From Spirogloea muscicola (lineage: Eukaryota; Streptophyta; Zygnematophyceae; Spirogloeales; Spirogloeaceae): DNA of 64,000 nt. This document shows, piece after piece, positions 14,339-62,300 of the stretch (positions within the stretch are counted from its first letter, which is position 1; each line of letters begins with the position of its first letter). Both the position numbers and the translations under genes were made by a program. Under the pieces are notes generated by a model. That model was given only the letters and a program-made list of their open reading frames with translations. It was not told the DNA's origin and did not search any database. Location: the NCBI GenBank assembly GCA_009602725.1, contig WELB01000025.1, positions 1,012,699 through 1,076,698 on the forward strand, read 5' to 3'.

Positions 14339-14818
14339 GAGAAAGTGCTCGCCCATTGAGGATAGGGGCTGGAAAAACCAGCCCAAAAACGAATGAACAA
14401 AGTACGAGAAGGGGGCCAGGGGAAGAGCGAAGAATAACAAGCACACACAGAAATAAAGCAGCTACGAATCACTCTGTGATCCCTGCTAAGCAGCCGCAGA
14501 TCAGAGATGCTAGGCTCCTGGAAGTGGGTCCCCCGGCCAGAGCCAGCAGCGAGACGGCCAGGCGTATGCGGTACACTTGCGTCAGCGACCCGGCTGCAGG
14601 AAAGTCCACCGGCTCCCTAGTGAAGCGCCGGGCGATGGTGTGGCAGGCGAGCTGGGTGAGCAGCTCGAGCCACCGAGCGCCCAGCGCCCCATGGGTGTCA
14701 ATTGCCAACGGGAAGACCTCGTCTTCCCGCGGATGATTGGCGTACTTGAGCTCTTCAGCCCGAGCAGCGCAGGCGACCGCATACCCAGCCTCGGTGGCAC
14801 ATTGGGCTGGGTGTGAGC
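14339..14818 (-). mobile_element. 5'-truncated family 1 LINE, minus strand
   Basis: Reading on the minus strand, a C-terminal coding part (RWLELLTQLACH..., FPAAGSLTQVYRMRLAVSL) runs from about 14818 to 14480. It is followed by the terminal peptide region, 3' UTR and the hairpin tail (GGGCTGG/CCAGCCC type) whose end lies at about 14339. The tail end abuts the last bases of the plus-strand element (its GGTTACTGAG end), so the host element has lost or never had its own tail. The coding part is closest to the copies at 15564-16142 and 17832-19142. Confidence 0.75.
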
Positions 14819-15104
14819 GATGACTTCGCGGCCCTGGCCATTGTCGTTCACGGGGCCTTCAGCAGTGGCTGGTTCTCCTCCACTCCATTGGCTCTTCATG
14901 AACGTGCAGGGCGCGCTCTAAGTCAGGCCTCCGGCTTCCGTGGCGGTTCTCCAGCTCCCCAGGTTAGCTTGTCAGACTTGTTTGTGCTCACCCGTGGATA
15001 CTATTGTCAGCTTAGGCACCTAAATTTAGGTCTCCGTATTATGTAGCCTTGTTAAATTTGCACTTGACTCTGCCTGAACATTGGCTTGAAATGGCCTCCC
15101 TGCG
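14819..15104 (+). mobile_element. LINE 3' fragment, divergent subfamily
   Basis: The frame reads AIVVHGAFSSGW, HERAGRAL and SLSDLFVLTRGY, then continues past the usual stop position into tail sequence. The tail matches 33385-33530 (shared GGTCTCCGTATTATGTAGC and CTCGACTCTGCCTGAACA-like blocks). It represents a separate subfamily with its own 3' end. Confidence 0.65.
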
Positions 15105-16290
15105 AGCCCGCCTTGCGGAGCATCTTCAGCCTACGGCCCGGCTTCCCGAGCTGGACGACATGCAGCTGTAGTTGGCCATGTTGACCAAGGCCATTGGGCA
15201 GCGGCCCCAGTACTTGACGCGGGCCACTCCGCCGTCCCCAGGGGCGTTGGCGGCGTACGCGGATTTTGATGCAGGCATGGTGGCGAGCTTGGCGGCCCTG
15301 GTCCGCCACCAGGGCTTCCTCCAGTCGCCAGCCGCTTTCCACCAGGCGGCGCTACCCCTCAGCCACGGTGGTCTCGGCCTGCGCCCGCTCGCCCGTTCTT
15401 GCCGGGCTGCATACCTCGGCAGCTGGGCGCAGACTGCCGCCTCCGTGGCCCAGCGCTTCATGGTCCACGGCCGGCGTGCATTGGAGCAGGCGGTGGTGGA
15501 GGTTGACATAGGCGCGCTGCCGTTCCAGGTGTCGCTTCGCTCCGCCCACCAGGATGCGATGCGATGCATGGCATTCTGGTGGAGGCTGGCTTCTCGGTGG
15601 CAGCGGAGCACTCCAGCGTCATGCCGCTCCAGGAAAGGGCTGACGGTCCCCACGCCCGTCGCGTAGACCTGGTGGCCACCCCACAGACCGGCGGGCCACG
15701 TCTTCTCCTGGACGTGGTGACCACCGACGCATACGACCGCTCGCACCCAGCCCAATGTGCCACCAAGGTTGGGTATGCGGTCGCCTGCGCCGCTCGGGCT
15801 AAAGAGCTCAAGTACGCCGACCATCCGCGGGAAGACGAGTTCTTCCCGCTGGCGATTGACACGTATGGGGCGTTGGGCGCTCGGTGGCTCGAGTTGCTCA
15901 CCCAGCTCGCCCGCCACGCCATCGCCCGTCGTTTCCATGGGGAGCGGGTGGACTTTCCTGCAGCCGGGTCGCTGGCGCAGGTGTACCGGATGCGCTTGGC
16001 CGTCTCGCTGCAGCGGTCAATGTCCCGCGCGCTGCACCTGCGGGCCGGCAGAGCCCTCGCTGCTGCCTTTGGCTCTGGCCAGGGGACCCAGTTCCAGGAG
16101 CCTAGCGTCTCTGATCTGAGGCTGCTTAGCAGGGGTTACTGAGTGATCCATAGTTGCTTTGTTTCTTTGTGTGCTTGTTTTTCTTTGCGCTTCCCTGGCC
16201 CCCTTCTCGTCCTTTGTTAATTCTTAATGGCTGGCTTTTTCAGCCCCTATTCTCAATGGGCGAGCACTTTCTTCTTCTTCGCCATAGCAC
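15076..16290 (+). mobile_element. Family 1 LINE copy with internal deletion
   Basis: The first part (15090-15550) encodes the thumb-like region (LPELDDMQL, ..RGLGxRPLARSCRAAYLGSWAQ) with a stop after DDMQL. At about 15550 roughly 420 bp are missing compared with the copy at 17832-19142, which removes the zinc finger. The second part (15564-16142, frame-shifted) keeps the ILVEAG..., RRVDLVATP and AAGSLAQVYRMRLAVSLQRS blocks and ends SVSDLRLLSRGY. The 3' UTR with the hairpin follows at 16228-16275. The breakpoint lies near a shared GCCCAC, suggesting microhomology. Not functional. Confidence 0.8.
16228..16275 (+). repeat. Family 1 tail hairpin (attached to element)
   Basis: GGCTGG...CAGCC hairpin followed by CCCTATTCTCAATGGGCGAGC. 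Here it is contiguous with the 3' UTR of the preceding retrotransposon, which shows that the widely scattered hairpin block is the element's own 3' end. No poly(A) follows. The end is a CTTTCTTCTT-like stretch. Confidence 0.8.
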
Positions 16291-16321
16291 GGCCTGCTCT
16301 TCAGGAACACGTGTGTATTAA

Positions 16322-16376
16322 GAGATGGGGAGGGCATGTGTGGCCAAGTACAAAAGCAAGCACATTGACAAGTGTA
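16322..16376 (-). repeat. Family 2 tail, solo copy
   Basis: Carries GTGGCCAAGTACAAAAGCAAGCAC, the inverse of the tail that follows the family 2 end at 3190-3262. The flanking matched bases (GAGATGGGGAGGGC) also agree. No coding part is attached. Other solo copies in this orientation lie at 25198-25250, 40855-40890, 51960-52015 and 60045-60085. Confidence 0.65.
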
Positions 16377-16414
16377 CATCACCTGGCCCCTTCGTAGCTG
16401 CTAAGCGGATTTTG

Positions 16415-16965
16415 CCAAGCTTCAATGCTGCCGGCTCCCTTGCGCAGGTCTTTTGAATGAGGCTGGCGGTCTCGCTACAGGCGCTCTTTGGCGTGCTTTG
16501 TAGTGTAGTCCTTTCTTGGCACTTTCTTTGGCTTTGGACATTGTCCATTCTTTTTGGGTTGGCTTTGCCAGCCCCTCCTTGTTTTCTTCTCTATGGGCGA
16601 GCTTTTCTTCTTTAGCTTATGCGGTTCACGCGCGCGCTGGCCGCGCTATGGCTGCTGCTTCCGGGTCTCGGCTGAGTGCCGCTTTTCAAGAGAACTCCGT
16701 GTATTAGAAACAAATGTAGGCTTTTCCTGCTTCTAGTTACTCTGATCTGCTGTTGCTCACACGTGGATATTCAGCATCCATCTGAATCTCAGAAGAATCT
16801 CCCTCTGCACCGTCTCGTGCTTTGTAGTGTAGTCCTTTCTCGGCACCTTTCTTTGGCTTTGGACATTGTCCATTAACTAAAAAAGACTTCTTTTTATTAA
16901 CGGGCTTTTCTTGGATTGGCTTTGCCAGCCCCTCTTCTCTATGGGCTAGCTCTTCTTCTGCAGCA
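16415..16965 (+). mobile_element. Cluster of two truncated family 1 LINE 3' ends
   Basis: The first piece (16415-16610) reads FNAAGSLAQVF then MRLAVSLQALF and runs directly into a hairpin tail at 16556-16610. The second (16618-16960) reads AVHARAGRAMAAASGS then SYSDLLLLTRGY, with its own tail hairpin at 16910-16958. A fragment of family 2 tail (about 16688-16716) interrupts the second coding piece. The same second subtype recurs at 39915-40190. Confidence 0.7.
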
Positions 16966-17060
16966 AAACGGCGCATTCGGTACACTTGCGCAAGTGCCGG
17001 CTGCAGGGGAGTCCACCGGCTCCCCATGGCCTCCCCATCTCTTCATACACACGTACGGAA
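16966..17060 (-). mobile_element. Short family 1 LINE C-terminal fragment, minus strand
   Basis: On the minus strand it reads HGEPVDSPAAG then a VPNA block, matching the GEPVDFPAAGSLAQVYRMR region of intact copies. It lies between tail-type repeats of both orientations. Confidence 0.55.
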
Positions 17061-17140
17061 GCGAAAAGCCAGCCCGAAAAAATTGACAGTGGTGCGAAGG
17101 GGCCAAAAGCGTTTTTGGCCCCTTCGCACCCACATGCTGC
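17061..17140. repeat. Inverted pair of tail segments forming a long hairpin
   Basis: GGTGCGAAGG..CCAAAA on the left (17092-17108) pairs with TTTTGGCCCCTTCGCACC on the right, separated by a few bases, with a single-base bulge. The arms are the GAAGGGGCCAAAA piece that precedes or follows many hairpin tails. The structure therefore likely arose by joining two tails head to head. Confidence 0.6.
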
Positions 17141-17335
17141 GGTGTTCCACAGGCCCTGAAGTGGTGGGCGTCCACAATCTCCTATGAGACGCCCTGGCGG
17201 GCTTGATGCGCGACGCCGGCTACAGCGCCATTGTGGAAGCAAGCAATGTAATGGCCATCACCACGGCTCCTCAGGGTCGCCATCACCGTCGCACCCTGGA
17301 CATTGTGTATAAAGATTTACATGGCTGGAATGTCA
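17131..17335 (+). mobile_element. Divergent LINE fragment: zinc finger and endonuclease-like region
   Basis: The frame reads HMLRCSTGPEVVGVHNLL, a stop, then DALAGLMRDAGYSAIVEASN and RRTLDIV. This matches the second half of the zinc finger and the start of the RRxDLV region in the better copies, but is clearly more diverged. It is a lone fragment of another subfamily. Downstream at 17350-17460 a roughly 72-bp segment beginning AGATGCCTGGAGAC occurs twice. Its inverse recurs near 35630. Confidence 0.6.
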
Positions 17336-17831
17336 ATGCAGCAGTAACGTATTGATAGATGCCTGGAGACTAGACACCTCATCCGGCTGACAAATAAATT
17401 GACTGTCAGTGCCGCAGGAAAGGCTTAACAGATGCCTGGAGACGGACAATTTCACCAGGCTGGGCAGCATGGCTTCAACCTAGAGCTGAGAGCGGCGCAA
17501 CCCGGAGTCGTGACACGCGAGACAGCATGGTGCTGGCGCTGGAACGGCGACGGGAGGTGGCAGCGCTGTAGACTGCCTTGACGGCGTTGTTAGCCGTTAG
17601 TGTTGACGGGAACGATAGTACGGCTGACGATAGCCTGGGGGTAGTGACCGTCAGCTGCGAGTGACGGGGGATCGTCAGTATGGGGGTGGAGGCCAATGGA
17701 TGGGTAGTTTGTCGGTGGTAGCCCGTTGATGGCCGTCGACAGTTCGTGGACGGGTCCTCAACGAGAAACTGGGTTCCAAATATCCCCACCCGGGCCCGCA
17801 TGGCCGGGCCACCCCGCCGTCCCCAGAGGCA

Positions 17832-19142
17832 TTGGCGGCGTACGCGACTTTCGACGCGGGCATGGTGGCGAGCTTGGCGGCCCTGGTCCGCCACCAGGGC
17901 TTCCCCCAGTCGCCAGCCGCTATCCACCAGGCGGCGCTACCCATCAGCCACGGGGGTCTCGGCCTGCGCCCGCTCGTCCGCTCATGCCGGGCTGCATACC
18001 TCGGCAGCTGGGCGCAGACTGCCGCCTCCGTGGCTCAGCGCTTCATGGTCCATGGCCGGCGTGCACTGGAGCAGGCGGTGGTGGAGGTGGACAAAGGCGC
18101 GCTGCCGTTCCAGGTGGCGCTTCGCACCGCCCACCAGGAGCTGCTCGCGGCGCACCCCGACATGGCCGGCCAGGCGGTCTCCTTTGCGCACCTCGCGCAC
18201 ACCGCTGACCTGCGCGTCCAAGCGCGCTTCGCGGCCGTCGTCGACAAGGCCGCCTACACCACCGCCGTGCTGCAGCTTCCTGAGGCTGACCTGCGCGGGC
18301 GCGCGAGACTACATTCGGCCTCCTCCCCGGGGGCAGCGGCGTGGCTCCAGGCACTCCCCATCACTGACGCCCTGACCCTCCCAGATGAGGTGTTTCGCAC
18401 TGCCGTCCACCGGCTCCTGGGGCTGCCGCCTCCATGCCTCCAGGGCGTGCGTCAATGCCAGTGTGGCGAGCGAGGGGCCAAGCCTGGCGAGCTGGCTGCT
18501 CACGTCCTGCGCTGTTCCCATGGCGGCGAGAGGACGGCGGCCCACGACCGCCTCCGGGACGCGATGCACAGCATCCTGGTGGAGGCTGGCTTCGCGGTGG
18601 CAGCGGAGCACTCCGGCGTCATGCCGCTCCAGGCCAGGGCCGACGGTCTCCACGCTCGTCGCGTCGACCTGGTGGCCACCCCACAGGCCGGCGGGCCACG
18701 TCTGCTTCTGGATGTGGTGACTACCGACGCATTTGACCGCTCCCACCCAGCCCAGTCTGCCACCAAGGCTGGGTATGCGGTCGCCTGCGCCGCTCGGGCA
18801 AAAGAGATCAAGTACGCCGACCATCCACCGGAAGACGAGTTCTTCCCGTTGGCAATTGACATCCATGGGGCACTGGGCGCTCGGTGGCTTGAGCTACTTA
18901 ACCAGCTCGCCCGCCACGCAATCGCCCGTCGCTTCCATGGTGAACCGGTAGACTTTCCTGCAGCCGGGTCGCTGGCGCAAGTGTATCGCATGCGCTTGGC
19001 CGTCTCGCTGCAGAGGTCCATGGCCCGTGCGCTGCACCTTCGTGCCGGGAGAGCCCTCGCTGCTGCCTCTGGCTCTGTCCAGGGGACCCACTTCCAGGAC
19101 CCTAGCCTCTCTGATTTGCGGCTGCTTAGCAGGGGTTACTGA
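17832..19142 (+). mobile_element. Family 1 LINE C-terminal ORF, 436 residues, intact frame
   Basis: A 5'-truncated copy with the longest uninterrupted coding part of the family. It starts downstream of the reverse transcriptase. Residues 208-228 form the zinc finger (C209, C211, H224, C228). A region with R276-R277-V-D279, D294, D299, K324 and K327 resembles the catalytic layout of restriction-like endonucleases in LINEs such as R2. Near the C-terminus come AAGSLAQVYRMRLAVSLQRS and the end SLSDLRLLSRGY. An earlier methionine is unlikely to be a true start, because homology to other copies continues upstream of the truncation. Its tail follows to about 19290. The endonuclease assignment is by motif spacing only. 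Confidence 0.8.
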
Positions 19143-19240
19143 GTAATTTGTAGCTGCTTTCTTTCTTTGTGTGCTTTGGTTTCTTAGCGCTTCCTCTGGC
19201 TTCCTCTGGCCCCCTTCTCGTTCTTTGTTCATTCTTTTTT

Positions 19241-19290
19241 GGGCTGGCTTGTCCAGCCCCTATCCTCAATGGGCGAGCCCTTTCTTCTAT
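19241..19290 (+). repeat. Family 1 tail hairpin, reference copy
   Basis: GGGCTGG-CTTGT-CCAGCCC forms a perfect 7-bp stem with a 5-base loop, followed by CCTATCCTCAATGGGCGAGC and a pyrimidine-rich end. It is contiguous with the coding copy at 17832-19142. Near-identical blocks are at 40525-40565 and 57259-57300 on the plus strand and at 28660-28722, 29815-29875 and 14349-14400 on the minus strand. Confidence 0.85.
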
Positions 19291-19604
19291 ATAGAGGGCA
19301 CCCGAGGTAGGAGAGGGGGTGAGTTCTTCACCCTACATCGGACCCCTGGACCCTTGCCACTGCAGTAACCGTTGCTCAACTTTACCGTTGCAGCCCCATC
19401 CCAATGCCTCCCCGCTCTTCCTTGCCACGCCGGCAGCCCGGGCTTGGCGATATCCAAGGCATTCATTACACTTTTGCTCTTGCCAAAACTGCCCCCAGCG
19501 CCGCCGCCGCCGTCGCAGCATTGCTGTCGGGCGTCTTCGCTGCTGTCGAGGCACGCCTGGAATGAGTGGGCTCACAGGACGGGCAGCCGCGCTGCCAAAA
19601 AGCC

Positions 19605-19690
19605 TTACACCGGGCGCTGTGAAAAAGCCAGCCCGAAAAGAATTCAAAAAGGTTCGAAGGGGCCAAAACCATTAGCAGCTACGAAGGGGC
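19605..19690 (-). repeat. Family 1 tail, solo copy, minus strand
   Basis: Contains AAAGCCAGCCCGAAAAGAAT followed by GGTTCGAAGGGGCCAAAA. This is the inverse of the tail order GGCCCCTTCGAACC...GGGCTGGC seen at 29695-29765. No element coding sequence is attached. Confidence 0.65.
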
Positions 19691-19866
19691 CTGAAGAGGA
19701 AAAGAATGTCTGGGGTGACTTCGCAACGGTCGCGTCAGGATCGGTGACGCAGGTAAAGCACGAAACATCGTGACCTTGTGTGAGGTGCAAAAATCGAGCA
19801 CTGCCTCCATCTGCTCTGAGGCTGTCGTTTACAGTCTTGCGTCATTAGCTTGTCCATCACTACATC

Positions 19867-20051
19867 TTGTGACTGGGACTGGTAACCGGTTCTTTGCGCT
19901 GTTGCGCTGGGTTACTGGGACCTGGTTCTTGCGCTGTTGCGCTGGATTACTGTCAATTGGAATTTGCGCTGCTGCGCTGGATTACTGTCGACTGAAATAT
20001 ACGCTGCTGCGCTGGGCTACTGATGACTGGTTTGTGCGCTGTTACGCTGAA
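19867..20051 (+). repeat. 35-bp tandem repeat
   Basis: The unit contains GCGCTGTTGCGCTGG then a TTACTG block. Unit starts fall at 19896, 19931, 19966, 20001 and 20036, exactly 35 bp apart, with a degenerate partial unit before the first. It is not open in a shared frame. It does not recur elsewhere in the window as far as I can see. Confidence 0.85.
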
Positions 20052-28389: not shown

Positions 28390-29130
28390 AATACGTCCAT
28401 CATGCCTATCCTGCAGAAGGCGGATGGACTCCATACTTGGCGGGTCGACCTGGTGGCCACCATGCCGGGCGGCGGTCCGCGCATCATCGCGACGTGGTCA
28501 CCACAGATGTGGTGGACCCTTCCGGGGATTCTGCCTCAAGGGCTGGCCATGCAGCGGCGCACGCTGCTTCCGCAGCAAAGGGAGAAGCACGCAGATCACC
28601 CGGCAGGGGACGAGTTCGTCCTCCTAGCCATCGATGTGCACGGGGCTCTCTCTTTTTTGAGAAGGGCTCGCCCATTGAGGATAGGGGCTAGAAAAGGCCA
28701 GCCCGAAAGAGAATGAACAAAAGACATTTGTGGTCCCAGGCTCGACTTGTTGGCCCAGCTTGCGCGACGTGCTGTGTCCCGCAGGCGAGGCGAGCAGGCC
28801 GACTTCAAAGCTGCCGGCTCGCTAGCTCAGGTCTTTTGTATGTAGCTCTTCATCTCACTCCAGCGGTCCATGGCCACACGCCTTGCATCTGCGTGCTGGC
28901 CGTGCTCAAGCTGCAGGCTCTGCCTTTCGCCAAGGGGATTGTTTTCCGGCAGCTAACCTGTCGGTTTTGAGGCTCCTCACTTGTCGCTACTGAGTGGTCC
29001 ATCCTCCACCCGTTCTGACATAGTACTACGGGCCCCTCCGTCATTTGGCTCCTTAGAAGCTTTGGCAATTCTTTTCGGGCTGGCTTTTCACAGCCCTTGC
29101 CCCCATTGGTAGAGCCACTTCTTCTTCTTG
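28390..29130 (+). mobile_element. Family 1 LINE 3' portion, interrupted by a tail insertion
   Basis: The first coding part (28390-28655) reads VMPILQKADGLHTWRVDLVAT and continues to AIDVHGAL. Sequence resumes at about 28738 with LDLLAQLARRAVSRR, KAAGSLAQVF and a degraded terminus with stop near 28992. A tail with hairpin follows at 29075-29125. Between the two coding parts lies an inverted, tail-only block (28656-28722). Frameshifts and stops make the copy inactive. Confidence 0.75.
28656..28722 (-). mobile_element. Tail-only insertion inside a LINE copy
   Basis: About 67 bp containing the inverted reference tail: GAGAAGGGCTCGCCCATTGA..., then the GGGCTAG..CCAGCCC hairpin, ending GAATGAACAAAAG. 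It interrupts the coding sequence between the HGA and LDLL blocks. In the copy at 11026-14338 these blocks are joined by only about five codons. The insertion is therefore short and in opposite orientation, and carries nothing but the tail. Confidence 0.7.
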
Positions 29131-29554: not shown

Positions 29555-29770
29555 TCTCCCGCTATAGCTGCAGCCTCTGGCTTTCGTCAAGGAAAGACGC
29601 TTCGTCAGGGGGATTGCTCTCCGGCTAATTAGTTCTTCTGAAATGCGGCTCCTCAATGGAGGTTACTGTGTGATTACCTTACCGGGAAGCGCTTTTGGCC
29701 CCTTCGAACCTTGTCTTTTCGGGCTGGCTGTTCACAGCCCTCGCCCTACTTTGGAGAGCCACTTTCTCCC
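29555..29770 (+). mobile_element. Family 1 LINE 3' fragment with tail
   Basis: Remnants of the C-terminus (AAASGFRQG..., RLLNGGY with stop near 29668) are followed by GGCCCCTTCGAACC and a GGGCTGGCTGTTCACAGCC tail at 29718-29765. Confidence 0.6.
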
Positions 29771-29814
29771 GCTGGGACTGACCGCCGCCGAGGTCAGCGC
29801 CCCTCAAAGGAAGG

Positions 29815-29875
29815 AAAGTGCTCGCCCATTGAGAATAGGGGCTGGAAAACCAGCCCGAAAAAGAATGAACAAAGG
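29815..29875 (-). repeat. Family 1 tail hairpin, solo copy
   Basis: Inverse of the reference tail: GAAAGTGCTCGCCCATTGAG, then GGGGCTGG and CCAGCCC, ending GAATGAACAAAGG. Closely similar to the insertion at 28656-28722. Confidence 0.75.
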
Positions 29876-30245: not shown

Positions 30246-30399
30246 AGTGTGGAAACGAGGACCTCGACAGCCAATTATGTCGAAAGGGGGCTGCCCGTGC
30301 GCCTCCGGGCCTCCTTCCCGCCCTCTCCGGCCCCTTCATTTCCTGTTTGTAGAGAATCACTTTTTGTCAGAGTGGACGGGGCTTCCAGAGGGCACGGAG

Positions 30400-33157
30400 C
30401 ACGCGGCTTTAAGAAGAAAGCGCGGCCAGATTGACTGTGGCTGGGAAAGGCCAGCCCAAAGGAATGGACAAGGTCCGAAGGAGCCGGAGTGCGAAGGACT
30501 AGGACTAAGACATCAGCCAGGAGACGCTCAGTAACTTCTAGTAAGGAGATGCAAGTCGGAGTAGCTAGCCGGCGGAGAGACGTCGCCTTGACAGAAGCCG
30601 GAGGCCGCCGCCAAAAGCTCGGCCTGCGCGCAAGTGAACCGCGAATGCAAGGGCCTGCCAGGTCCGGGTGCGCCGCGAGCAGCTCCTGGTGGGCTGAGCG
30701 AAGCAACACCTGGAACGGCAGCGCACCCATGTCGACCTCCACCATCGCCTGCTCCAGTGCACGCCGGCCGTGGACCATGAAGCGCTGGGCCACGGAGCGG
30801 CAGCCTGCGCCCAGCTGCCGAGGTATGCAGCCCGGCAACAATGGGCGAGCGGGCGCAGGCCGAGACCACCGTGGCTGAGGGGTAGCGCCGCCTGGTGGAT
30901 AGCGGCTGGCGACTGGAGGAAGCCCTGGTGGCGGACCAGGGCTGCCAAGCTCGCCACCATGCCTGCATGAAGTACTGGGGCTGCTGCCCAATGGCCTTGG
31001 TCTAACATGGCCAACGACAGCTGCATACGCCGCCAATGCCCCTGGGGACGGGGGAGTGGCCGGCGTCAAGTACTGGGGCCGCTGCCCAATGGCCTTGTCA
31101 ACATGGCCAATGACAGCTGCATATCGTCCAGCTCGGGAAGCCGGGCCGCAGGCTGAAGATGCTCCGCAAGGTGGGCTCGCAGCTGCCCCTCCACGAAGGA
31201 CGGCGCGCCGATGGGGACCCCCCAGCAGGGTGAAGCCATCTGCTGGAGTCTGGCAGCCGGTGGGCAGCGTCAGGGTGGGTGGGAGGCCGCAGGGAGACCA
31301 AGCTGCGCACTTCGACGCCCCGGTGGACTGGCTGAGGGTGGCCAGCTGCAGCTCAAAGGTGACAAAGGCCGCCGCCACGTCTTCCGGAGGGCCGACTATG
31401 GTGGTGTCGTCCGCGAAGGTGGGGAGTAGGACTCCTGGGTGTGCCACCGCGGTATCCTGCAGAGCCCGGTGGTGAGCAAGCGCAAAGTAGAAGCCGGCGA
31501 GGGGGTCCCCTTGCCGCGTGCCCGCTTGGGACTGCAGGACCTCCACTTGATCACCCCCTGTCCGCTAGAGGAGGTCGCTGGGCTGACCGTACCCCAAGCG
31601 GAAAAAGGGTACCAGGGAGGGGAAGGATGCCCGGAGCTCCTCCGCAATACTGGCGCGCTCCACAGTGTTGAAGGCATTCTTCACGTCAACAGCCAGCACC
31701 AGCCACCCCGGGTGCTGGTCCAAAGTCGCACGAACCCCATGGACGACGGCCTCGCCCCCACTCCGCAGCCCCGCGCCGTACAGGTGTGACGCCATGTGCA
31801 CCTGCGCCGGCCCCACATGCTGCTGCCAAAGTACGCGATTCACCAGGCGGTACAGGACCTCCCCATGGGCAATGGGCCTGACTCCCCCTCTCGGCTTGTC
31901 GTGGGCGAGCAGCGTGCTGGTGCACAGTACGCCGCGGATGCTGGCCGGCACATTGTCTTGGGCCATATGCTGGTAGATCTGCAGCAGCGCGTTGAAGTCT
32001 GCCGCCTCACCCTCGAGGAAGATCTCCTGCAGGTGCTCAGTTAGCATGCGGGAGGGGCCGCCGGCGGCTGCGCGATGGCTGGTCTGGAGAGCCTTCTTGA
32101 GGGCGTCGGCTTCCAAGACCACATCTCCGGTGGGGTGAACGCGGCCAACCACGGTGGCAGGGGGGAGCTGGCCGGGGGGTGGAGGGAGTCCAGAGCCGCC
32201 CTGGTTGCCGCATTGGTTGGCGCCAGCATCGCATCGTCCAGGGCCTGCACAGCCCGGGAGACCTCACCCGCGTGGCCGTAGCGAAGAGCCCTGCGGACGC
32301 TGGCGGCTCGGTCGTGTGTTGCCCCTCGGCCACCACGATTGGCCGCGGACGCCGCCACGGTGCGTCGTGCCTCGCCAGGAGCTCCTCCCAGTGCCCGCTC
32401 TCAAACAACTGGACGCGTTCCAAGAGGGGCTGCTGGCCCTGCTTGCGGCTGTCGGGAGAGACCTGCCCGAGCAACAGCCGTGGGAAGAGGATGGACAACT
32501 TCCACGCCGCCTCGTCCCTGTGGTCCGCGACGATCCGCTGCGTCACCGGGTGGAGCGCACGGCGGAGGTGTGGGCACGCCCAGCGCAAAATAGAATTGCG
32601 GCCAGGTCAAGGCCTGCCAGCCACTGCCAGTGGTGAGGCGTGGGCGGGGACGGTGCGGGAGGCCTGCCTGGTCTGCCCCGACGACCACCCGCCGCCACTG
32701 CGCTCCGCGCCTGCTCCGCACGGTTGCTGTTGCACGTGCGAGTTTCCTGGTGGTTGTACCGGCCTTGAGGATGGGGGAGCGTGGTCACCTCGTGGGTCCC
32801 ATCGCATCTCAGGGGTGGAGGCGATAACGCCTGACACTTCTCTCGGGCGGGAGGCGATAGAGTAGTGGCCTCCATGAAATGCTCCGTGGTATGCTCCGCC
32901 TGAGTAGTTGCCAGGGCCGTGACGATGGGGCTGCAACCCGCGATGGCCGCTGCGGGCGGAGTGCCGGTGGGGCTGGCATGCCCCTTGCAGTGTCGCCGAT
33001 GCACGGAGACCCCATGGGGAGGTGCGAAGTCCCGCGGGCGGGTGGGGCACGGCGCGCGCGGGGGCTTCGCAGGCGAGGGTGGCGACGCGGAAGAAGGGGG
33101 GGCTGCGGCGGAGGTGGCGTGGTGGCGGCATGGAAGGCGGCGAGGGCGAGAAACCGC
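30400..33157 (-). mobile_element. Family 1 LINE, minus-strand copy with RT, endonuclease region deleted
   Basis: On the minus strand, coding blocks run HHWQWLAGLDLAAI (about 32630), WACPHLRRALHPV, AWKLSILFPRLLLG, then an RT with motif A AVDVKNAFN near 31680, motif B TRQGDPLAGFYFALAHH near 31515 and motif C FADDTTIV near 31420. The end is SYSDLHLLTRSY near 30530, and the tail hairpin lies at 30430-30465. Near 30665 a HPDLAG block is joined to the LRAGRA block, so the zinc finger and endonuclease-like region are missing. A 65-bp segment is duplicated (30968-31032 and 31069-31130). Frameshifts split the rest. It is probably close to full length at the 5' side, judged by the upstream repeats. Confidence 0.8.
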
Positions 33158-38929: not shown

Positions 38930-39340
38930 GGGAATGATTTCCCCGCATCGCTTCCCCGCCCTTCCCCCCCCTCTCTCCCGCCCGCCCGTCCGTGCGCCAC
39001 CGCCGGCCGCCGACAGAGCCAGCCGGCGGCCGTCTCCGGGACCGCCATGTGGTGCACGCGCGAGGGCTACCGTCAGGACGCGCGAGTGGCTCTTTCCGCC
39101 CAAGCTTCAGCGAGGGGGCCTCCTCGCGACGGTGGCTGCCTTCGGCACCGCTCCCAATCCTCACTGGGCGATCACTGTCTTCTTCGGCACCTCTCTTTTG
39201 GGGCGGCCGTCCCTCCCTCCCCCTTTCGCGCGGCCGCGGCTTCGCCCACCTCCCTTCCTTCACAAGCCCGTGGTACACATCTTATGCTTGCCTGGGAACA
39301 GAAGTGACTTCTCCAAAGGAGCCGGGGGCTGCGTACGAAA
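38930..39340. other. GC-rich stretch without recognised gene
   Basis: High GC, CCGCC-rich, with several overlapping open frames and no domain. It resembles in composition the upstream regions of the gene models elsewhere, but no downstream gene was found. Confidence 0.35.
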
Positions 39341-39354
39341 GAAATGGCTCTCCT

Positions 39355-39560
39355 GAAGGGGGCAAGGGCTGTGAACAGCCAGCCCAACAATGAATGACAA
39401 AGTCAAAAGGGGCCGAACAGCGTGCTATTCCAGAGCTTTCCCGGTAGTATAGTCACTTTTAAGCTCTAGGGAGCAGCCGCAAGTCAGGGAGACAAGCCGC
39501 CGGAAGCAATCCCCTCGACGAAAGCCAGAGGCTGCAGCTAGAGCACGGGCAGCACCCAGA
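39355..39560 (-). mobile_element. Family 1 LINE 3' fragment with tail, minus strand
   Basis: Minus-strand remnant HALHLGAARALAAASGFRRG then a frameshifted terminus, followed by the tail with CAAGGGCTGTGAACAGCCAGCCC read on the plus strand at 39360-39390. The tail and coding parts keep the order seen at 28990-29125. Confidence 0.6.
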
Positions 39561-39914: not shown

Positions 39915-40190
39915 CTTTGGCTCATGCGGTCCACGCGCGGGCTGGCCGTGCTATGGCTGCTGCTTCCGGGTCTCGGCAAAGGGCCGCTTCTCCTGCTCCG
40001 AGTTACTCTGATCCGCTGTTGCTCACACGTGGATACTGAGCAGCCATCTGCATCTCCCTCTGCACCATCTTGCACTTTGTAGTGTAGTCCTTTTTCAGCA
40101 CCTCTTTCTTTGGCTTTGAACATTGTCCATTCTTTTTGGGTTGGCTTTGCCAGCCCCTCTTCTCAATGGGCGAGCACCTTCTTCTTTCCA
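39915..40190 (+). mobile_element. Family 1 LINE 3' fragment with tail
   Basis: Reads AVHARAGRAMAAASGSRQRA then SYSDPLLLTRGY with stop near 40039. The 3' UTR (CTTTGTAGTGTAGTCCTTT, GGCTTTGAACATTGTCCATT) leads to the tail hairpin TTGGGTTGGCTTTGCCAGCC at 40135-40160. It is the same subtype as 16618-16960. Confidence 0.75.
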
Positions 40191-40700
40191 AGCCACCAGT
40201 CAACCTGGCCGCGCCTTCTTCTTTTGGAGCCTATTCCTTCAGACCTTGTCCAATCTTTGGGCTGGCCTTTCTCAGCCACCAGTCAATCTGGCCGCGCTTT
40301 CTTCTTTTGGAGGCTGTTTCTTCTGAAGAAACAGCTCTTACAATTCACGGCAATGGCTGTGAGAGGACAGCCCCAAGGAACGAATCTTCCATAGATGGGC
40401 GATGGCTGTGATGGATAAATCTGAGGGCTGGCTTCTCTCAGCCCTTGCCTTCCTTGCGGCCCTTTCGGACCTTGTTCTCTGTCGGCCTATTTCTGGGCTG
40501 GTCAATCTTAGCCATCGCCCTGGCTTGTCCAGCCCCTATCCTCACTGGGCGAGCCCTTTCTTTCTTATGAAAGAGTCCTCCTCTCTCTTGGGCTGGCCTC
40601 TCGCAACTACTGCCGGTACGTTGCAGAGCCCTCTTTCATGGAATAGCTGCTTCTCTTCTCCCAGCCCTCGCACTCAGTGAAAGTGCTGCTTCTGTCGGGC
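40190..40700 (+). repeat. Cluster of family 1 tail segments
   Basis: At least five partial tails in either orientation: CTGGCCTTTCTCAGCC near 40260, GAGAGGACAGCCCC near 40360, GGGCTGGCTTCTCTCAGCCC near 40425, CTTGTCCAGCCCC near 40525 and GGGCTGGCCTCTCGCA near 40590. No coding sequence intervenes. Confidence 0.6.
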
Positions 40701-47751: not shown

Positions 47752-49692
47752 TTAGCTCCACATATCGCTGAAGTCTAAGGGACCTAGCGGTGCAAAGCCA
47801 TTTCCTGGTTCTGCTGTTTCTTCATAAGGCAGACGGCAGTGATCTTGCCAGTGCAAGACATCTGCCTTCTCTGGACCTGCTTCTGACTGGGAGCTGAAGA
47901 AGGAATTGACAGCCTCAAATTCAGGAGAAAGTTCTAAGGACTTGCTGGAGCTTGGTGTAGAAGTGTCCTCCATGTCTTCCGCCCCTGAGCCCGCTGCAGT
48001 GACATCCGCATGGCCTGCATCCTGTCCCTTGAAGATGGCTGCGATGTTCATGTTGTAATCTGCATCAGCCTTATGTGTGTACTGCTCACATGTGATCCAT
48101 GGGTCCACGGGTACACCACTTGATGCTTTTGAAGTTGCTGGTGCAGGCCCTAATACCTGATGAGCTCTCGTTTGCGGAAGTGCGGCAGTGCTTGGTCCTC
48201 CTCTGGGTGGCGGATGGGGATCTCTTGGACCGATGTCAATGGGCGGGCCCCCAGTCTGGCTGATGAGAGAGATCGCAATTGGCTTTGGAGGGGCAGCGTG
48301 GGTATGATAGCCTATGTAGGTGACGACAAACACATTCTTGTCGACCTTAGAAACCTCCACTTTCTTCTTTGCCAGGCATGGCTGGTCAGAGTCCTCCAGG
48401 CTGCAGCGGAAGTAATTGCGAGGATTTGGCGAGCTCTTGATGGGCTTCCTGCCGTATTTGCGCCAACTCCAACCATCGTCAGGGATGTGCTTCTCGTCGA
48501 AGGGCTCTTGGACTATCACGTGTATCTCCTTAGTGGGCACCTTTGGTCTGCAAAAGTTGGGTGTCGAAGGTGTTGATACAGATGTGGATTGAAAAATTGC
48601 CACAGCTAGCTGCTCACACACCGTGCCAGCTACTCTTTTTGAGATGACGTCCAAAGTCGATGCAATGAGACAGTGTTGTCAAGTCGATGTTGATGAGCAG
48701 AGTTCTGGTGGTGAGCAAGCTCATGCAATGTGGCTCAATGCGATTGACCACACACAAATGCATGTAGCACTCACTTTCTTGGAGATTGGCGACTGCCATC
48801 CATCCTGTTGCCGTTGGAGCATCTGGTCCGCTTGGCTCCGGCACTTTTTGCAGCACACTGGTTGAGAATATCAGCACCCTTGTCGCAGTGTGATTCATAC
48901 GACGCTCTCCTGGCACTGGCTTGCATACGGACATCCTCCTCCATCTTCAGGGGTAGCAGGGCTGAGTATCCATCGAGGTAAGCCGTGCTCTTCTCACTGG
49001 AGGTTGTCGATGCAGACATTGGGCTAAGGGGTGCCGTATGTGGGCCAAGGGAGGAAGGTCCTTGGCTGCTGCATGCTCCCAGATGGACCCCTCGATCAAG
49101 GGCGAGAGAGGGAGAAGAAGCTTGTGTACTGGCAACTTCCAGATGGCCTGCAAGGAGACGGAACTCCTGTAACTGCTCTTGGGCTTGCAGCAATGTTTCC
49201 GTGAGATCCGCCAGCTGCCTCTGCCCATTGCTTATTGTACTCGTGGCTGCTGATGCCTCGGAAATTCTGCATTAAGTAGGAGAGGACGACAGGTTGAAGG
49301 AATCGCGAGTGCCGGCCACTGGAGCAGCTTAATTGCACAATGTACCACACTTGAGCACAGTAAAGTTCCAGGTAGCAACTGAGCAGATGGGCGGGTATGT
49401 TCAAGCAGCCATGAGGAGGGCTTTACAAAAGACTTGCTACTGCAAAGGGCAGTCTTGTGCCCAAGTGCGGAGAGCTGTACCCAGCTGCAGCTGCGCATGG
49501 TGCCAGCTGAGCGAGGTCGTGGCACATCTCCTGCTGGCAAGCAGAGCTCCTCTGGAGCCACAGCAGCTCCGCGAGAGCCGCGAGGTTGCCGACGGTGAGG
49601 CTGAGAGCGGAGGCGGCCTCCATGAGCCGGCGCGCAGCATGAGCGTGGAGGTCCGAGCCGCCGGCGGGGCTTCCTTGGGACAGCCGCGCCAT
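47752..49692 (-). CDS. WRKY-domain transcription factor, atypical
   Basis: Exons 49692-49481, 49266-48775 and 48547-47752 give 499 residues. Both introns (214 and 227 bp) are GT-AG in phase 2. WRKY factors are plant nuclear proteins binding W-box DNA (TTGACC/T). The domain lies at about residues 258-318, all in exon 3. The signature is WRKYGRK (263-269), with Arg for the usual Gln. The zinc ligands are C283-X8-C292-X23-H316-X-H318. PIKSSPNPR after the signature recalls groups IId/IIe. The long Cys spacing, CLAKKxV and TYIGYHTH recall group III, which however ends in HXC. The intron usually found inside plant WRKY domains is absent. Exon 1 is helical, exon 2 is Ser-rich with a QAQEQLQEF helix, and the C-terminal third is Pro/Ser-rich and acidic, possibly activating. 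The start is the first ATG in the GC-rich exon. DNA-binding specificity cannot be read from sequence. Confidence 0.88.
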
Positions 49693-54471: not shown

Positions 54472-54519
<48 letters not shown>

Positions 54520-54780: not shown

Positions 54781-54789
54781 CTCGGCAAG

Positions 54790-56309: not shown

Positions 56310-56319
56310 ATGGTGCACC

Positions 56320-57240: not shown

Positions 57241-57254
57241 AGGCTTCTTTGTTC

Positions 57255-57300
57255 ATTCTTTTTTGGGCTGGCTTGTCCAGCCCCTATCCTCAATGGCAGA
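57255..57300 (+). repeat. Family 1 tail hairpin, solo copy
   Basis: TTTTTTGGGCTGGC, CTTGT loop, CCAGCCCCTATCCTCAATGG, almost identical to the tail attached to the element at 17832-19142 but without coding sequence upstream. It is followed at 57343 by the GCGCGCGGGGCGCATG repeat. Confidence 0.8.
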
Positions 57301-57454
57301 GGCCCTCTTGCCGTGCCGGAGCCCGCCCGCTCTTACAACGTAAGAGAAGGCGCGCGGGGCGCATGAAATGAAATGGAGGCCGATTCAATCCGATACATTG
57401 TTCAGGCAGTCTAGGGCAAACTGAACAGGGCTACACAATGCGAAAACCAATGTA

Positions 57455-57960
57455 AGGCAATGGCTATGAGAGTGTGGCCAGCCCTAAAATCTACAAGGTG
57501 AAAGCGAAGTGGCTCTCCAAATGTGGGCAAGGGCTAGAGAAGTCAGCCCGAACGTAATTGACAATGTTCAACAGGGCCGGCCTTGAATTCTTGTCGGGAC
57601 GACCGTGGGCCGACCGCCGGGGGACGACCCAGCCTTGACGACCTATAGAAAGACGGCGTGCATGAGCAGGTGCTCCTTTCTCTCTCCTTTCTCTCAGCCC
57701 TTTCATTTTTTTTTCTGGGCTGGCCTCTCACAGCCATCGCCCTCTACTGAGAGCGTCTTTGTTTCTTGCATACCTTTGTTGATCCCATTCTGGGCTGGCC
57801 TTTCACATGCCCCCATTGGGAGAGCCTTCTCTTTCACAGCCATCGCCCCATCCTGGACCTTGTCCGTTCTTTGCTTCTTTCCTTTCTTCTCTTGGGCTGG
57901 CCTTTCAAAGAAGAAGTGCTCGCCCATGAAGAAGCTGGCTGGCAAAGCCAGCCCAAAAAG
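57455..57960. repeat. Mixed-orientation cluster of family 1 tails
   Basis: Tail blocks lie at 57455-57490 (-), 57505-57570 (-), 57705-57760 (+), 57790-57830 (+) and 57890-57910 (+). The inverted tail of the element at 57895-59518 follows. Each carries the GGGCTGGC/GCCAGCCC half and a CATCGCCC or GGGCAAGGGC half. Confidence 0.6.
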
Positions 57961-59518
57961 AATGGACAATGTCCAAAGCCAAAGAAAGAGGTGCCGAAAG
58001 AAGACTACACCACCAAACACAACAACGCACTAGGGAAGCTCAATACCCTCGAGTGAGCAACATCAGGTCGTAGTAGCTCGAAGCCGGGAAGGAGGCACTC
58101 TCGAGACCCAGGGGCAGCGGCCAAAGCACGTTCTGCTCGCGTGTGGACGGCGTGGGCAAGGGATCGTTGGACCATACCGCCAGGCGCATGCGGAAGACCT
58201 GGGCTAACGAACCGGCGGCGTTGAAGCCGGGCAGCGCCCCTGGCAGACCCGGCCGCCGGTCAATGGCCTGACGGGCAAGCCGCTGGAGGAGATCCAGCCA
58301 GCGGCTGCCGAAAGCTCCGTGAACGTCATTCGCCAGGGCCGCGATTTAGTCACCAACCGGGTGGGATTGGCGGAGTCGAAGCAGTCAGTTGTCACCACGT
58401 CGGCGATGATGCGGGAACCGCCGCCGGGAGGGATGGCGACCAGGTCAGCGCGGCGAGTATGGGGCTGGCCATCCACGCCCAGCTGGATTGGCATCACTGA
58501 GGCGCTCTCTACCGCCACCTTGAAGCCCTCCTCCATATACACCCACTGCAAACCATCGCGCAGGAGATTATGGGAACCGGTCCGCTCGCCGCCGTGCGCG
58601 CAACGGAGCATGTGCGCGGCCAGCTCCGCAGGGTCGGCGTGACGGGCGCCGCACTCGCACTGAGTGACGCCCACGAGGCAGGGAGGGAGGAGGCTCAACA
58701 GCCGTTGGACTGCCGTCCTGTAGACCTCATCTGGCATGGTAAGTGCTGCGTGGAGTGGGAGCGCGTTTAGCCACGCCGCCGCCCCAGGGGAAGAGGCTGA
58801 AAGAAGCCGGGCACGCCCGCGAAGATCGGACGGAGTGAGAAGCTCCACCACCTGGTCAGAGGCCGCCTTCTCAACTGACGCCGTGAAGCGTGCCTGGGCC
58901 CGCAAGTCGGGGCGAGGTGCATGCAAGGAACAGCCTGCTCGGACATGGTAGGGTGGACCCGCCAGGAGCCCGTCGCGGGCAGAGCGGAGGGCGACCTGGA
59001 AGGGTAGCTGGCCTGTCTTCACGTCAGCTGCCGCCCGCTCCAGGGCGCGCTGGCCGTGTACGAGGAACCGCTGGCACATGGGGGCTGCAACCTGAGCCCA
59101 GCTCCCCATGTAGGCCGCCTCACAGACGCGGGCAACCAAGCGGCATACCAAGCCGCCACGACTGGTCGGCAGGCTGGCCTGCAGCTGCGCAGCTGGTGTG
59201 GTGAGGAACGCGGGGAGCTGCACGAGGGTGGCTGCGGACGCCAAGATGCCGGAGTCGAATGCCGTGTACGCTGCCTTCATCGTCGGTGAGGGAGGGACGG
59301 TGCGGGCCAGGTGGTGTGGCCGCTGCGCGATGCAACGTGTTAGCATAGCGGTGGCCAGCTGCATGTTTTGCAGCGTGTGGAGGCGGTCGGCCGGCCGAAG
59401 TGATCCTGCATACGCACCTGCAGCTGCTCCGCCACAAAATCAGGTGCGCCTAGGGGGACGCCGAGGAATGTGAGGCCCTCGGCCGGTGTCTGGCAACCCA
59501 CGGGCAGGCCCAGGTTTC
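57895..59518 (-). mobile_element. Family 1 LINE, 5'-truncated minus-strand copy with tail
   Basis: On the minus strand it begins in RT motif E (GCQTPAEGLTFLGVPLGAPDF near 59500) and reads through a thumb-like region (AYTAFDSGILASAATLVQ). A zinc finger CECGARHADPAELAAHMLRC near 58640, and RRADLVAIPPGGGSRIIADV with the following D near 58430 follow. A break near 58350 shifts the frame. The end SYYDLMLLTRGY lies at 58040 and the hairpin tail runs to about 57895 (GGGCTGGCTTTGCCAGCC). A 386-residue frame (59364-58204) is uninterrupted. It is closest to the copy at 11026-14338. Confidence 0.8.
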
Positions 59519-59571
59519 AAAGCCGTCGCCTTCCTCCACTTCCTCCTCCTTTTTCGGTGCTTTTCCAGCTG

Positions 59572-59920
59572 CAAACTCCAACTTGCGACTGCTGACTCAC
59601 GGTCACCAAGCGCCCATCTCAAAGTCACTTGCAGAGCTTGTGTAATTCAAGCGCATGTCAGCCCTCTTGGGCCTTGTCTATCCCTTCTGGGATGGCCGTT
59701 CACAGCCCGCGCCCCCTTTGGTTCATTCTTGATCTGGGCTGGCCAATCACAGCAATCGGCCTCAACTTGAAGAAAGTCTCTCTCTCTCTCTCTTTGGACG
59801 AGCTTGCTTCATTCTCTTCATTCTTTCACAGAAAGATAGTGGCTCTCCCAGAGGGGGCAAGGGCTGTGAACAGCCAGGCCGACAAACATTGACAAGGTCT
59901 GACGGGGCCAAAAAGCGCTC
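59572..59920. repeat. Family 1 LINE ends, both orientations
   Basis: Plus-strand remnant of the terminal peptide (LQLATADSR-like frame near 59575) is followed by tails at 59680-59715 and 59730-59770. An inverted tail, CAAGGGCTGTGAACAGCCAG then GGGGCCAAAAAGCGC, lies at 59845-59920. Confidence 0.6.
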
Positions 59921-60044
59921 TCCCAAAGCTTTCCCGGTTCACAGAGGACTGAGAAGAGCCAGCCTCAAGAATTGTCTGCGGTAAGTGTCTGCGAGGAAGC
60001 CGGAACGAGAAGGACAACCTCAGCCAAGCGAGTCGCCGCTTTTG

Positions 60045-60085
60045 AGTGACAGAGGGCCGGAGCGGGCAAGTACAAGGCAAATGTG
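60045..60085 (-). repeat. Family 2 tail fragment, solo
   Basis: GAGTGACAGAGGGCC then GCAAGTACAAGGCAAAT. This is a degenerate form of the tail at 51960-52015. Confidence 0.5.
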
Positions 60086-60144
60086 GTTACGAATGCACGT
60101 TGTCGAGGTACACTGCGATCTTTGATTACCTGGTGGATGCTGAA

Positions 60145-60491
60145 CTAGCGTCGCCCGCTCACTTGGGCACCGTGGCAGCAAGAGTGTGATTGCTGGCCCT
60201 GTCGCGGTTCCGCTTCTGTTGCCGCCTGCTGAAGCCCAACAGACATGCCCTGGCCGCTTTGACCTCGGGCTTTTGTACGCCAGCTAAATCCCTGAATGCA
60301 GTTACTAAGCAACCAGGAGTTTGATTTAGCAGTTTGTCTAGTCTGCCTTTGATGTTCATTGTCATTTCCTCTTGCTGCCTCAGGCATGTCATTAATATAC
60401 TCTGCAAACTGCGGGGAAACTGGGCGAGCCCGTGTTTGATGTGATGATGATCGGTGCTGTCGTGTGAAGTGAAACTCGCCTCAATGTCCAT
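60145..60491 (-). CDS. Possible single-exon ORF, 110 codons
   Basis: From an ATG at 60491 the frame reads MDIEASFTSHDSTDHHHI, QSILMTCLRQQEEMTMNIK and RLDKLLNQTPGCLVTAFRDL, then a basic SRRQQKRNRDR stretch, to a stop. Composition and codon use look coding rather than GC-driven. A stop precedes the ATG by a few codons after an AAG that could be an acceptor. No domain recognised. Next to retrotransposon tails on its 3' side. Confidence 0.35.
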
Positions 60492-60739
60492 CTTGAAGCC
60501 CGCCCTTCAAGGCCTAACGTGGGGTGGTAGACAATGTGAGCAAGTGTTGCATGCGCTCACACATTTACAAAATCTGAGGTGTCAACTTCGACAGAGGGCA
60601 AATTTTTGCTTCGGACTCATTTATGGGAGACCGCATAGCGCACAGTCGATGTCAGCCTGCAGTTGTTAAAAATCTGGCAAGCTGTTCTCACATGGTCAAC
60701 TGCTGAAGCTTGTACGCTTTGGCTTCTTGCGCAGCACAG

Positions 60740-60860
60740 GCACGAAATCTACCAAAGAACCACAGGCATGAAAATTTCAGCAGTCAGAATGAAAGCTCCA
60801 CCCCACTTCTAGAAGAAGCGAAGCGACGACTTTCTCAGGACCTCCTCAACAATTTGACAA
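60740..60860 (+). CDS. Possible internal exon
   Basis: GCAGCACAG acceptor-like site, then ARNLPKNHRHENFSSQNESS and LLEEAKRRLSQDLLNNLTS before a GTAAGC donor near 60864. The residues suggest a disordered part followed by a helix. No matching partner exon found on either side. Confidence 0.25.
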
Positions 60861-60899
60861 GTGTAAGCCTGCAAGGGGGTATAGAAGCCTAGACACGCC

Positions 60900-62300
60900 G
60901 ACTTACAAGTTGGCCATATTCATGATGCTCAAGATAGGAGAGTCACATATCTTGCTTGCTTCATTACAACCTTGCTGCTCTACTGAATTACTCTCTCCTT
61001 GCAATTACATTGCTGAGACGTTGTACTGCAAAGATGTGGGCAGCTTTACTCCGTTCACTGTTGTCTAAGACTTGGCACTCAAAAATATTACACTAATCAC
61101 GTCTTTCTGTTGTAGCAATGCTCCAGATAGCCATCCTCCTCAAGTAAGGTAAGAGCTGTGAGAGGCCAGCCCAAAAGCAATGAACAAGGTTAAAAATCGC
61201 TGGAAGGTGCAAAAGCAGGTGCCTCTGTCACTTCTGCAAATGGGCGCTCAATAACATTTAGTCAATAAATTCAGATCGGAATAAGCAGTGGGCGGAAAGG
61301 CTCCAAAAATGCTCCAACATATGCTGAGGCAATCACACTTCCCTTCAGTGCATTGTGCAAGCAACATCAAGAGCAGACTCTTAAACTTGTAAGAGCATAC
61401 ATCTTGCCCAGTGCCTGTCGCTTGCAAATGCTAACTGATTATAGCTGCGGCCCATGGCCTCGTTGAGAGTGCCTGCTCCACTTTTCGACGAATTACGGAC
61501 ACAAATTCTGATGGGAAGCGTCAGCAGATGAGGCTGGCATCGACGTCCATAATTATGTCTGTGACCTTTCTAAAGATGCGGTCTTCAGACAGCTTGAGGT
61601 CCTTCAGGAATTATGAAAACACTCTCGAGCGCGGCAGGATGGGTACACGCGGAATGGCAAGCCCAAAGACCATGGGAGCTGACTACTGTTGCTTATTCTC
61701 AATAGAGATGTGTACTCAGGGAGAAATGAGTCATTGAAAGGCTCAGCAAAATAGGCACCACGGTTTGTGGTGCCTATTTTCTGGTGCCCCCTTCCATACA
61801 TAAATCAATGTACCTTGCGCAATTACTAGCACTGATGTGAGTGCGACTTGCTTATGGTGTTAAATCATCTTATGACTACTTGTCAACCTAGGACAAGACG
61901 GCAAACTACTGCTGTGCTGCTTTGTAAATCTTGCCTTCTGTGCCTGAGAGGTACAAGCAGAGCTGACACTGGGCTTGCATAGAACACCTAGAAGCACGTG
62001 CCCTTCAAGGGTGATCACAAAAGAGAAGGCTCGCGGTGCTTATGATATTCAAGGGAGGCCAAATCGAGCAAGTTAATTAATTACACACAAAATCGTCAGA
62101 CCTTGCTACTAAAAGTGCAGTTCGGCCTTGTATTTAGAGGATAGAAAGGAGAGCCTGTAGAACCAAGTTATCCAGGCAGCAAAGAAAGGATGGTTAGATA
62201 TGTATATGATGTGCTGGACTAGCTGGTGTGTGAATATCGTAAATATCGTACATACGTTGAACCATCCACGTGATAACTGCATACTGACTGCAGCCCCTTC
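60900..62300. other. Mostly non-coding, one tail copy and one hairpin
   Basis: Apart from the solo family 1 tail at 61140-61190 and the hairpin at 61748-61780, no feature is supported. A frame at 61528-61737 (+) and its shadow on the other strand lack recognisable content. Confidence 0.4.
61748..61780. repeat. Perfect 14-bp hairpin
   Basis: AAAATAGGCACCAC and its exact inverse GTGGTGCCTATTTT, separated by GGTTT. It is not related to the retrotransposon tails. No coding region ends next to it with confidence. It might be a tiny inverted-repeat element or a structured RNA 3' end. Confidence 0.85.

Follow-up and report, generated by a model that had tools for sequence, protein, structure and literature searches.

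Solo hairpin tails in Spirogloea muscicola as probable short copies of an R2-like LINE family

Hairpin tails and LINE copies in the window

The window analysed here, a stretch of 64,000 nucleotides from Spirogloea muscicola contig WELB01000025.1, contains many copies of a tail of about 90 bp with a GGGCTG..CAGCC hairpin, which lies on both strands, either after the stop codon of a long interspersed nuclear element (LINE) or alone. A tail profile built by iterated nhmmer (cut-off E<0.01), with a consensus near GGCCCCTTCGGACCTTGTCCATTCTTTTTGGGCTGGCTTTTCACAGCCCTTGCCC..GGGAGAGC..TTTCTT, has 51 matches in the window, 30 on the plus and 21 on the minus strand. The initial annotation had recognised solo tails on both strands, which these matches bear out, but its count of about 25 more was too low. 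A coding end of the type SDLxLLxRGY (with up to 3 substitutions) lies within 200 nt upstream of 17 of the 51 tails. The window hairpins fall into several subfamilies, the tail at 30408-30493 being unlike that at 19205-19291, and Rfam has nothing at gathering score within the window.

All LINE copies inside the window are degraded. A frameshifted plus-strand copy at 11450-14338 is recognised by a PF00078 match (E 8.6e-8) and by tblastn with the C-terminal protein; its left end is approximate and set by eye, its reverse transcriptase (RT) part spans 12153-13430, and a C-terminal finger/endonuclease-like part spans 13454-14335. The stop of this plus-strand copy is abutted by the 3' end (14336-14418) of a minus-strand LINE-A copy at 14336-14819, which has its coding end at 14819-14476 and its tail at 14418-14336. 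Another LINE-A copy, at 15115-16278 (+), has the coding end SDLRLLSRGY* at 16142 and a tail at 16196-16275. The 470-aa open frame at 17730-19142 (+) is a LINE-A C-terminal half that also ends in SDLRLLSRGY*; it has a CxC..H..C finger and an RxDLV..DVVTTD..K..KY endonuclease-like motif, for which the fold evidence is weak. It is followed by the LINE-A 3' untranslated region (UTR) and hairpin tail at 19143-19291 (+), with the stem at 19241-19259 and the profile tail at 19205-19291. One non-LINE repeat (near CCTGGACCCTTGCC..CTGCAGTAACCGTTGCTCA) lies, by eye, just 3' of two LINE-A ends, at 19343-19460 in the window and at 4224-4345 of a second locus, L091 (see below). A degraded LINE body with an RT remnant at 30275-31564 (-) has a tail of another subfamily at 30408-30493.

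LINE-C type tails lie at 16531-16610 (+), a profile match with the GGGTTGGCTTTGCCAGCCC hairpin, at 16854-16958 (+), with SDLLLLTRGY upstream, and at 57905-57980 (-), where the tail belongs to a minus-strand LINE with its body at 58204-59439. A LINE-C tail at 40112-40185 (+) follows SDPLLLTRGY, and a tail at 61139-61210 (-) has SDLNLLTKCY upstream. Profile matches also include a LINE-B type tail at 29039-29125 (+) and a GGCTGTTCACAGCC-type tail at 29692-29767 (+); the GGCTGTTCACAGCC-type tails at 39336-39423 (-) and 59832-59919 (-) show GGCTGTGAACAGCC on the plus strand. The initial annotation had placed an SDLxLLTRGY-type stop ahead of several tails, and it is present, with 0-1 substitution, before those at 16196-16275, 19205-19291, 30408-30493 (-), 40112-40185 and 57905-57980 (-).

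Some LINE-A copies consist of the tail alone. One of about 60 bp at 28660-28721 (-) is a profile match, and another, at 29812-29874 (-), has a possible 7-bp duplication, TCCTTTG, which is ambiguous because CCTTTG is present in the LINE itself there. The copy at 40520-40565 (+) starts inside the hairpin. At 57247-57307 (+), a copy of about 50 bp that lacks ~15 nt normally present at the tail's end is flanked on both sides by the direct repeat CAGAGGC (by eye GGCAGAGGC).

The tail is abundant well beyond the window. The genome searched comprises 153 Mb in 471 contigs, and the profile was run on a 288-kb sample made up of the window, 20 systematic 10-kb loci and 8 loci fetched by the hairpin (two overlap). 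This sample has 214 tail matches, and the same sequence reversed, used as the control, has none. Seven duplicate L006 matches overlapping L005 were removed (leaving 207) for the repeat search, the copy list and the outer-stem test described below. A SDLxLLxRGY coding end lies upstream of 66 of the 214 tails, compared with 83 of 2000 random positions (4%). The systematic loci contain 94 matches in 200 kb, strongly clumped, with 9 of the 20 loci empty; scaling from these gives, as a crude extrapolation with a wide margin, about 72,000 tails in the whole genome. Exact words are also frequent: GGCTGTGAACAGCC occurs 605 times and its reversed pattern not at all, exact matches to two 25-nt 3' anchors number 2,568 and 1,679, and those to a LINE-B anchor 523.

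The source LINE and its protein

An intact copy lies elsewhere, at locus L091, with a single open reading frame (ORF) of 1,299 aa and the hairpin tail directly after its stop. The ORF contains RVT_1 in Pfam (PF00078, E 7.9e-16), and its sole significant sequence matches in the PDB are R2 retrotransposon proteins (phmmer; 9nl3, 9nl2 and 9dou, E 6.8e-7 to 1e-6, next 0.79). By this PDB comparison the L091 RT appears closest to R2-type RTs. The C-terminus, which ends SDLRLLSRGY*, has CxC..H..C and a motif like that of a restriction-like endonuclease (RLE), presumably resembling the motif of R2. Two C-x2-C...H..C-like motifs are seen by eye at the N-terminus, where the Pfam C2H2 matches (E 0.09-0.4) are below the cut-off. 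The C-terminal fold predicted from the window copy has low confidence and matches the R2 endonuclease region no better than unrelated folds; because this match is unspecific, the endonuclease is a putative one, assigned from motif and position. Searched against the PDB, neither the C-terminal protein nor its profile matched a LINE: the top result was at E 2.5 in one search and, in the other, a designed helical protein at 0.014.

The window RT was also used as a query, with 128 of 1,899 candidates scored; this listed 129 matches, 20 of them in open frames of 1,324-1,433 aa and with no stop inside the match. With at least 20 long open RT frames, the family therefore appears to have been active recently. 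A longer copy tried as the source, L089, is truncated within the RT. Three further RT matches (G000:C120:368846-369577, C6:94427-95167 and C71:415815-416534) lie in open frames of 4,532, 4,071 and 3,138 aa, far exceeding the source ORF. Directly before the intact LINE (L091:200-4224), the 5' half of another LINE-A tail lies at L091:1-112 and stops at the hairpin apex (GGGCTGGCTG). No duplication is seen by eye at this junction, which could mean that the LINE inserted into a hairpin or that the copy is chimeric at its 5' end.

Ends and insertion sites of the copies

Copy ends were read at the first 60 listed places for each of the two 25-nt 3' anchors, 250 nt apiece, and each 5' breakpoint was located by extending the match along long copies. 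L067 was counted as full-length, and L035 and L154, both preceded by N, were censored. These 120 copies, from two subfamilies, have a near-fixed 3' end and variable 5' ends. The 5' breakpoint lies within 150 nt upstream of the anchor in 82 copies, and 44 break less than 50 nt upstream and are thus tail-only. Breakpoints up to 150 nt are consistent with a hazard that stays at 0.80% per nt (Kolmogorov-Smirnov parametric bootstrap p=0.52), and they show no 6-nt hot spot beyond what simulation yields (p=0.56). The third subfamily was sampled at the first 20 listed LINE-B places, of which 19 were readable with L171 skipped, and compared with seven reference copies chosen by eye as long, with no shuffle control; 12 of the 19 stop within the first 90 nt, at differing points, and the other 7 extend for at least 179 nt. 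No common 5' boundary is found in the 120 copies or in the 19.

The 3' junction reads C[ACT]CTT(T)C in 102 of the 120 copies. A run of A6 within 25 nt of the anchor is found in none of them, in agreement with the absence of poly(A) reported by the initial annotation. Direct repeats of at least 8 bp flank 15 of 44 truncated copies in the first set (500 shuffles: mean 2.0, max 6) and 12 of 43 in the second (500 shuffles: mean 5.4, max 11); at 7 bp or more the first set has 20 of 44 (mean 3.7, max 9). A repeat search without fixed boundaries is noisy. Among 75 short tail matches of mixed age the enrichment is mild, 15 having direct repeats of at least 7 bp (200 shuffles: mean 7.5, max 14). Clear solo copies with direct repeats are L060 (TACGAGTGGC), L038 (CCATTAGCCTGG), L086 (GATAAAGGG) and L030 (TACGTTC), and L002:2368-2413 is a 38-bp insert with the direct repeat CTTTACTGG. 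Solos of 38-48 bp start inside the hairpin or at its base.

The copies do not share a single 28S rDNA site, as insertions of R2 proper do. All 120 downstream flanks are distinct, and a 14-mer is common to 12 of 7,140 pairs. Of 44 empty sites, 7 lie in tails, which cover 3.3% of the sample, and this raised the possibility that copies insert preferentially into other tails. Tail coverage within 0.1-2 kb of copies is 13-26%, however, so clumping suffices for the 7 tail insertions. At G000:C14:291450-291578 and C2:1532046-1532174 a tail is followed 12 bp on by part of a tail in inverted orientation, an arrangement common to both loci that may be a composite which was duplicated.

Other features of the window include an open frame with a WRKY DNA-binding domain at 47752-48678 (-) (PF03106, E 2.6e-21), which is probably a host gene exon. 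Together with this domain, 68 chlorophyll a/b-binding matches in the genome, one of which on translation matched chlorophyll a-b binding chains of known structure, agree with a green-lineage host. CCCTAAA and variants form interstitial telomere-like repeats at 10825-10875, between LINE remnants. A run of about 40 G at 9967-10006 is possibly an oddity of assembly or replication.

Origin of the solo tails and relation to known LINEs

The hairpin is most probably the conserved 3' end of an abundant R2-like LINE family, and the solo tails extremely short 5'-truncated copies of it. R2 elements move by target-primed reverse transcription, which starts at a fixed 3' point and may end early, and the anatomy of the present copies, with a fixed 3' end and an early 5' end, therefore suggests the same process. 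The LINE protein would bind the 3' end of the LINE RNA and nick the target, and reverse transcription would start at the fixed pyrimidine-rich 3' terminus. The RT would then drop off at a nearly constant rate of about 0.8% per nt over the first 150 nt. With such a rate most copies would be tens to a few hundred bp long, and over a third would extend little beyond the tail. The tail-only copies would thus be the short end of the truncation distribution, and extreme 5' truncation explains them. This was one of the proposals of the initial annotation, and the smooth breakpoints and the target-site duplications on tail-only copies uphold it.

The other proposal saw in the solo tails a minimal non-autonomous element, like a short interspersed nuclear element (SINE), which borrows the LINE hairpin and has its own 5' end. 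Such an element would account for tail-only copies being very common (44 of 120), and SINEs with LINE tails are described from green algae and plants (PMC3747384). For the three subfamilies examined it is nevertheless improbable: the breakpoints of the 60 + 60 copies spread over 1-150 nt at a constant drop-off, the LINE-B copies of the third subfamily examined also end at differing points, and solos that start in or at the base of the hairpin have no room for a 5' body. Nor does much speak for a specific block of the RT by the hairpin, with the tail-only copies as products stalled at the stem-loop. Several solos with direct repeats do start in the loop or 3' arm (L029, L030, L038, L060, L086, and likewise L001:1251-1208 and L002:2368-2413). 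Over the 10 nt upstream of the anchor, which take in the loop and some of the 5' arm, the hazard is however 0.58% per nt (7 events in 120 copies), not raised above the 0.45-1.26% per nt found elsewhere, in a set blind to copies shorter than the 25-nt anchor. This makes stalling quite unlikely.

The tails are also short, have a palindromic core and occur without coding sequence, as would be expected of a DNA element (a miniature inverted-repeat transposable element, MITE, or a Helitron-like one) or a host 3'-processing hairpin that became joined to LINEs secondarily. This origin is very improbable, given the excess of LINE coding ends upstream of tails, the intact LINE with its tail directly after the stop, and the near-fixed 3' end, varying 5' end and flanking direct repeats of the copies. 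Two fixed ends, as in a MITE or DNA transposon, are not seen, the 3' end alone being fixed, in data that include no separate search for terminal inverted repeats.

Several results weigh against extreme 5' truncation at a constant rate as the whole account. Direct repeats of at least 7 bp in the second set, at 15 of 43 (mean 9.3, max 16), are not beyond chance, perhaps because nested tails have TTTCTTCTT in common, and three locus pairs overlap in sequence in the two 60-copy sets. In one young variant, among listed places, the copy extends at least 48 nt upstream in 58 of 100, at least 121 nt in 24 of 54 and at least 641 nt in 5 of 100, so that further up truncation seems to continue at perhaps half the rate; this exact-word survival mixes truncation with divergence and subfamily differences. 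Extents also bunch at 149-167 nt, mostly outside the fitted range (eight copies in the second set, two in the first), which a single constant rate leaves unexplained. The eight of the second set are L098, L123, L137, L139, L141, L147, L152 and L154, several near GGGACCCACTTCC and L154 after N. A second 5' boundary near GGGACCCACTTCC at 149-167 nt is possible.

The structure of the hairpin is likewise a point of weakness. The hairpin is strongly conserved as sequence: in an alignment of 74 of the 78 distinct listed copies, 11 arm columns keep the majority base at 95%, compared with 67% in other columns (permutation p<1e-4), although this may be inflated because the copies were found by a hairpin-centred profile. 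Adding column 41, the variable outer partner (64%), lowers the arm majority to 93%, and adding the seventh pair as well lowers it to 90%. Covariation in the inner stem is weak, with 83.9% of 510 pair cells paired compared with 83.8% after shuffling, and its score is equalled by 101 of 500 shuffles. Four pairs have one double change each, which was reached by 0 of 500 shuffles counted by pairs and 36 of 500 by cells. An outer stem UUGUCCAUU/AAUGGGCGA, at which individual folds had hinted, was rejected on comparing matched with swapped arms (p=0.73 for 29 cluster representatives, p=0.85 when restricted to the 7 clusters of at least two members). Six tails, folded seven times in all, came out only mildly more stable than their shuffles (z -0.2 to -2.2), and RNAalifold found no pairs across the 74 divergent tails, perhaps owing to old copies in which the stem is broken. 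The conservation of the arms fits the recognition signal that the initial annotation had seen in the hairpin, and by analogy with stringent LINEs this role is plausible; the covariation that would add to it is weak in the inner stem and absent from the outer. Among the features proposed at the outset for checking, target-site duplications are present, a common 5' boundary is absent and stem covariation is weak. Of the signs then named as speaking against a hairpin-tail system, a smooth breakpoint distribution and no shared boundaries were found, yet so were target-site duplications and an abundance of tail-only copies.

Judged from its sequence, the family would be an RLE-type LINE with a hairpin tail, a known kind of element, notable for the abundance and shortness of its copies. 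R2-like elements of Blattella germanica share with it an R2-like RT and dispersed insertion within an R2-like group, and 5'-truncated R2 copies and their origin have been described there (PMC7650587). The 3' UTR of that R2 is 600 bp, whereas about 125-150 nt follow the stop here, and the present family differs further in its green-lineage host and its thousands of exact 3' anchors; its copies are mostly <200 bp. Utopia/NeSL-type RLE LINEs have N-terminal zinc fingers, a central RT and a C-terminal finger plus RLE (PMC4640811), a layout to which the present family may be likened. Utopia targets U2 genes, whereas the flanks differ in the present family, and target-site duplications, rarely recognisable in certain families of that report, are common here.

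Zebrafish L2 (ZfL2) is an established case of stringent 3' stem-loop recognition (PMC4176376), and such recognition has been argued for a monocot L1 lineage, in which the stem is followed by CGAG and the last 45 nt are far more conserved than the rest (PMC3747384). The present family shares a conserved 3' stem-loop with these LINEs, here conserved as sequence and without poly(A), and LINE-A also has the CGAG word. In contrast, the ZfL2 and monocot elements belong to the L2 and L1 clades, the compensatory changes reported for the monocot stem (PMC3747384) are weak in the present tails, and recognition of the present hairpin is argued from sequence and analogy. Stringent or shared tails described for the plant lineage in the papers cited here belong to L1-clade, RTE or Dualen/RandI elements. 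A small, partial literature search found no published description of the family, nor of RLE LINEs in green algae.

Dualen elements encode two endonucleases, while in L091 Pfam lists no second endonuclease domain (E up to 10), and no separate SINE is seen among the three subfamilies. Dualen/RandI LINEs and SINEX of Chlamydomonas (PMC3747384, PMC8226300) likewise combine a green-lineage LINE with short elements that share its tail.

More tentatively, and with some doubt, diverged RLE LINE lineages may keep a near-identical hairpin, so their proteins could cross-mobilise each other's RNAs, with a memoryless RT that drops off at about 0.8% per nt from the start, even through the hairpin. If so, the genome's tails would directly record LINE processivity in vivo and would show that the hairpin is released before being copied. 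On the truncation account itself, the distance travelled by an RLE-type LINE RT can be estimated in vivo from the copy-length distribution, and a puzzling cloud of hairpin repeats is reduced to one measurable process. A hairpin common to many diverged lineages also provides natural material on which to test the choice of RNA by such proteins.

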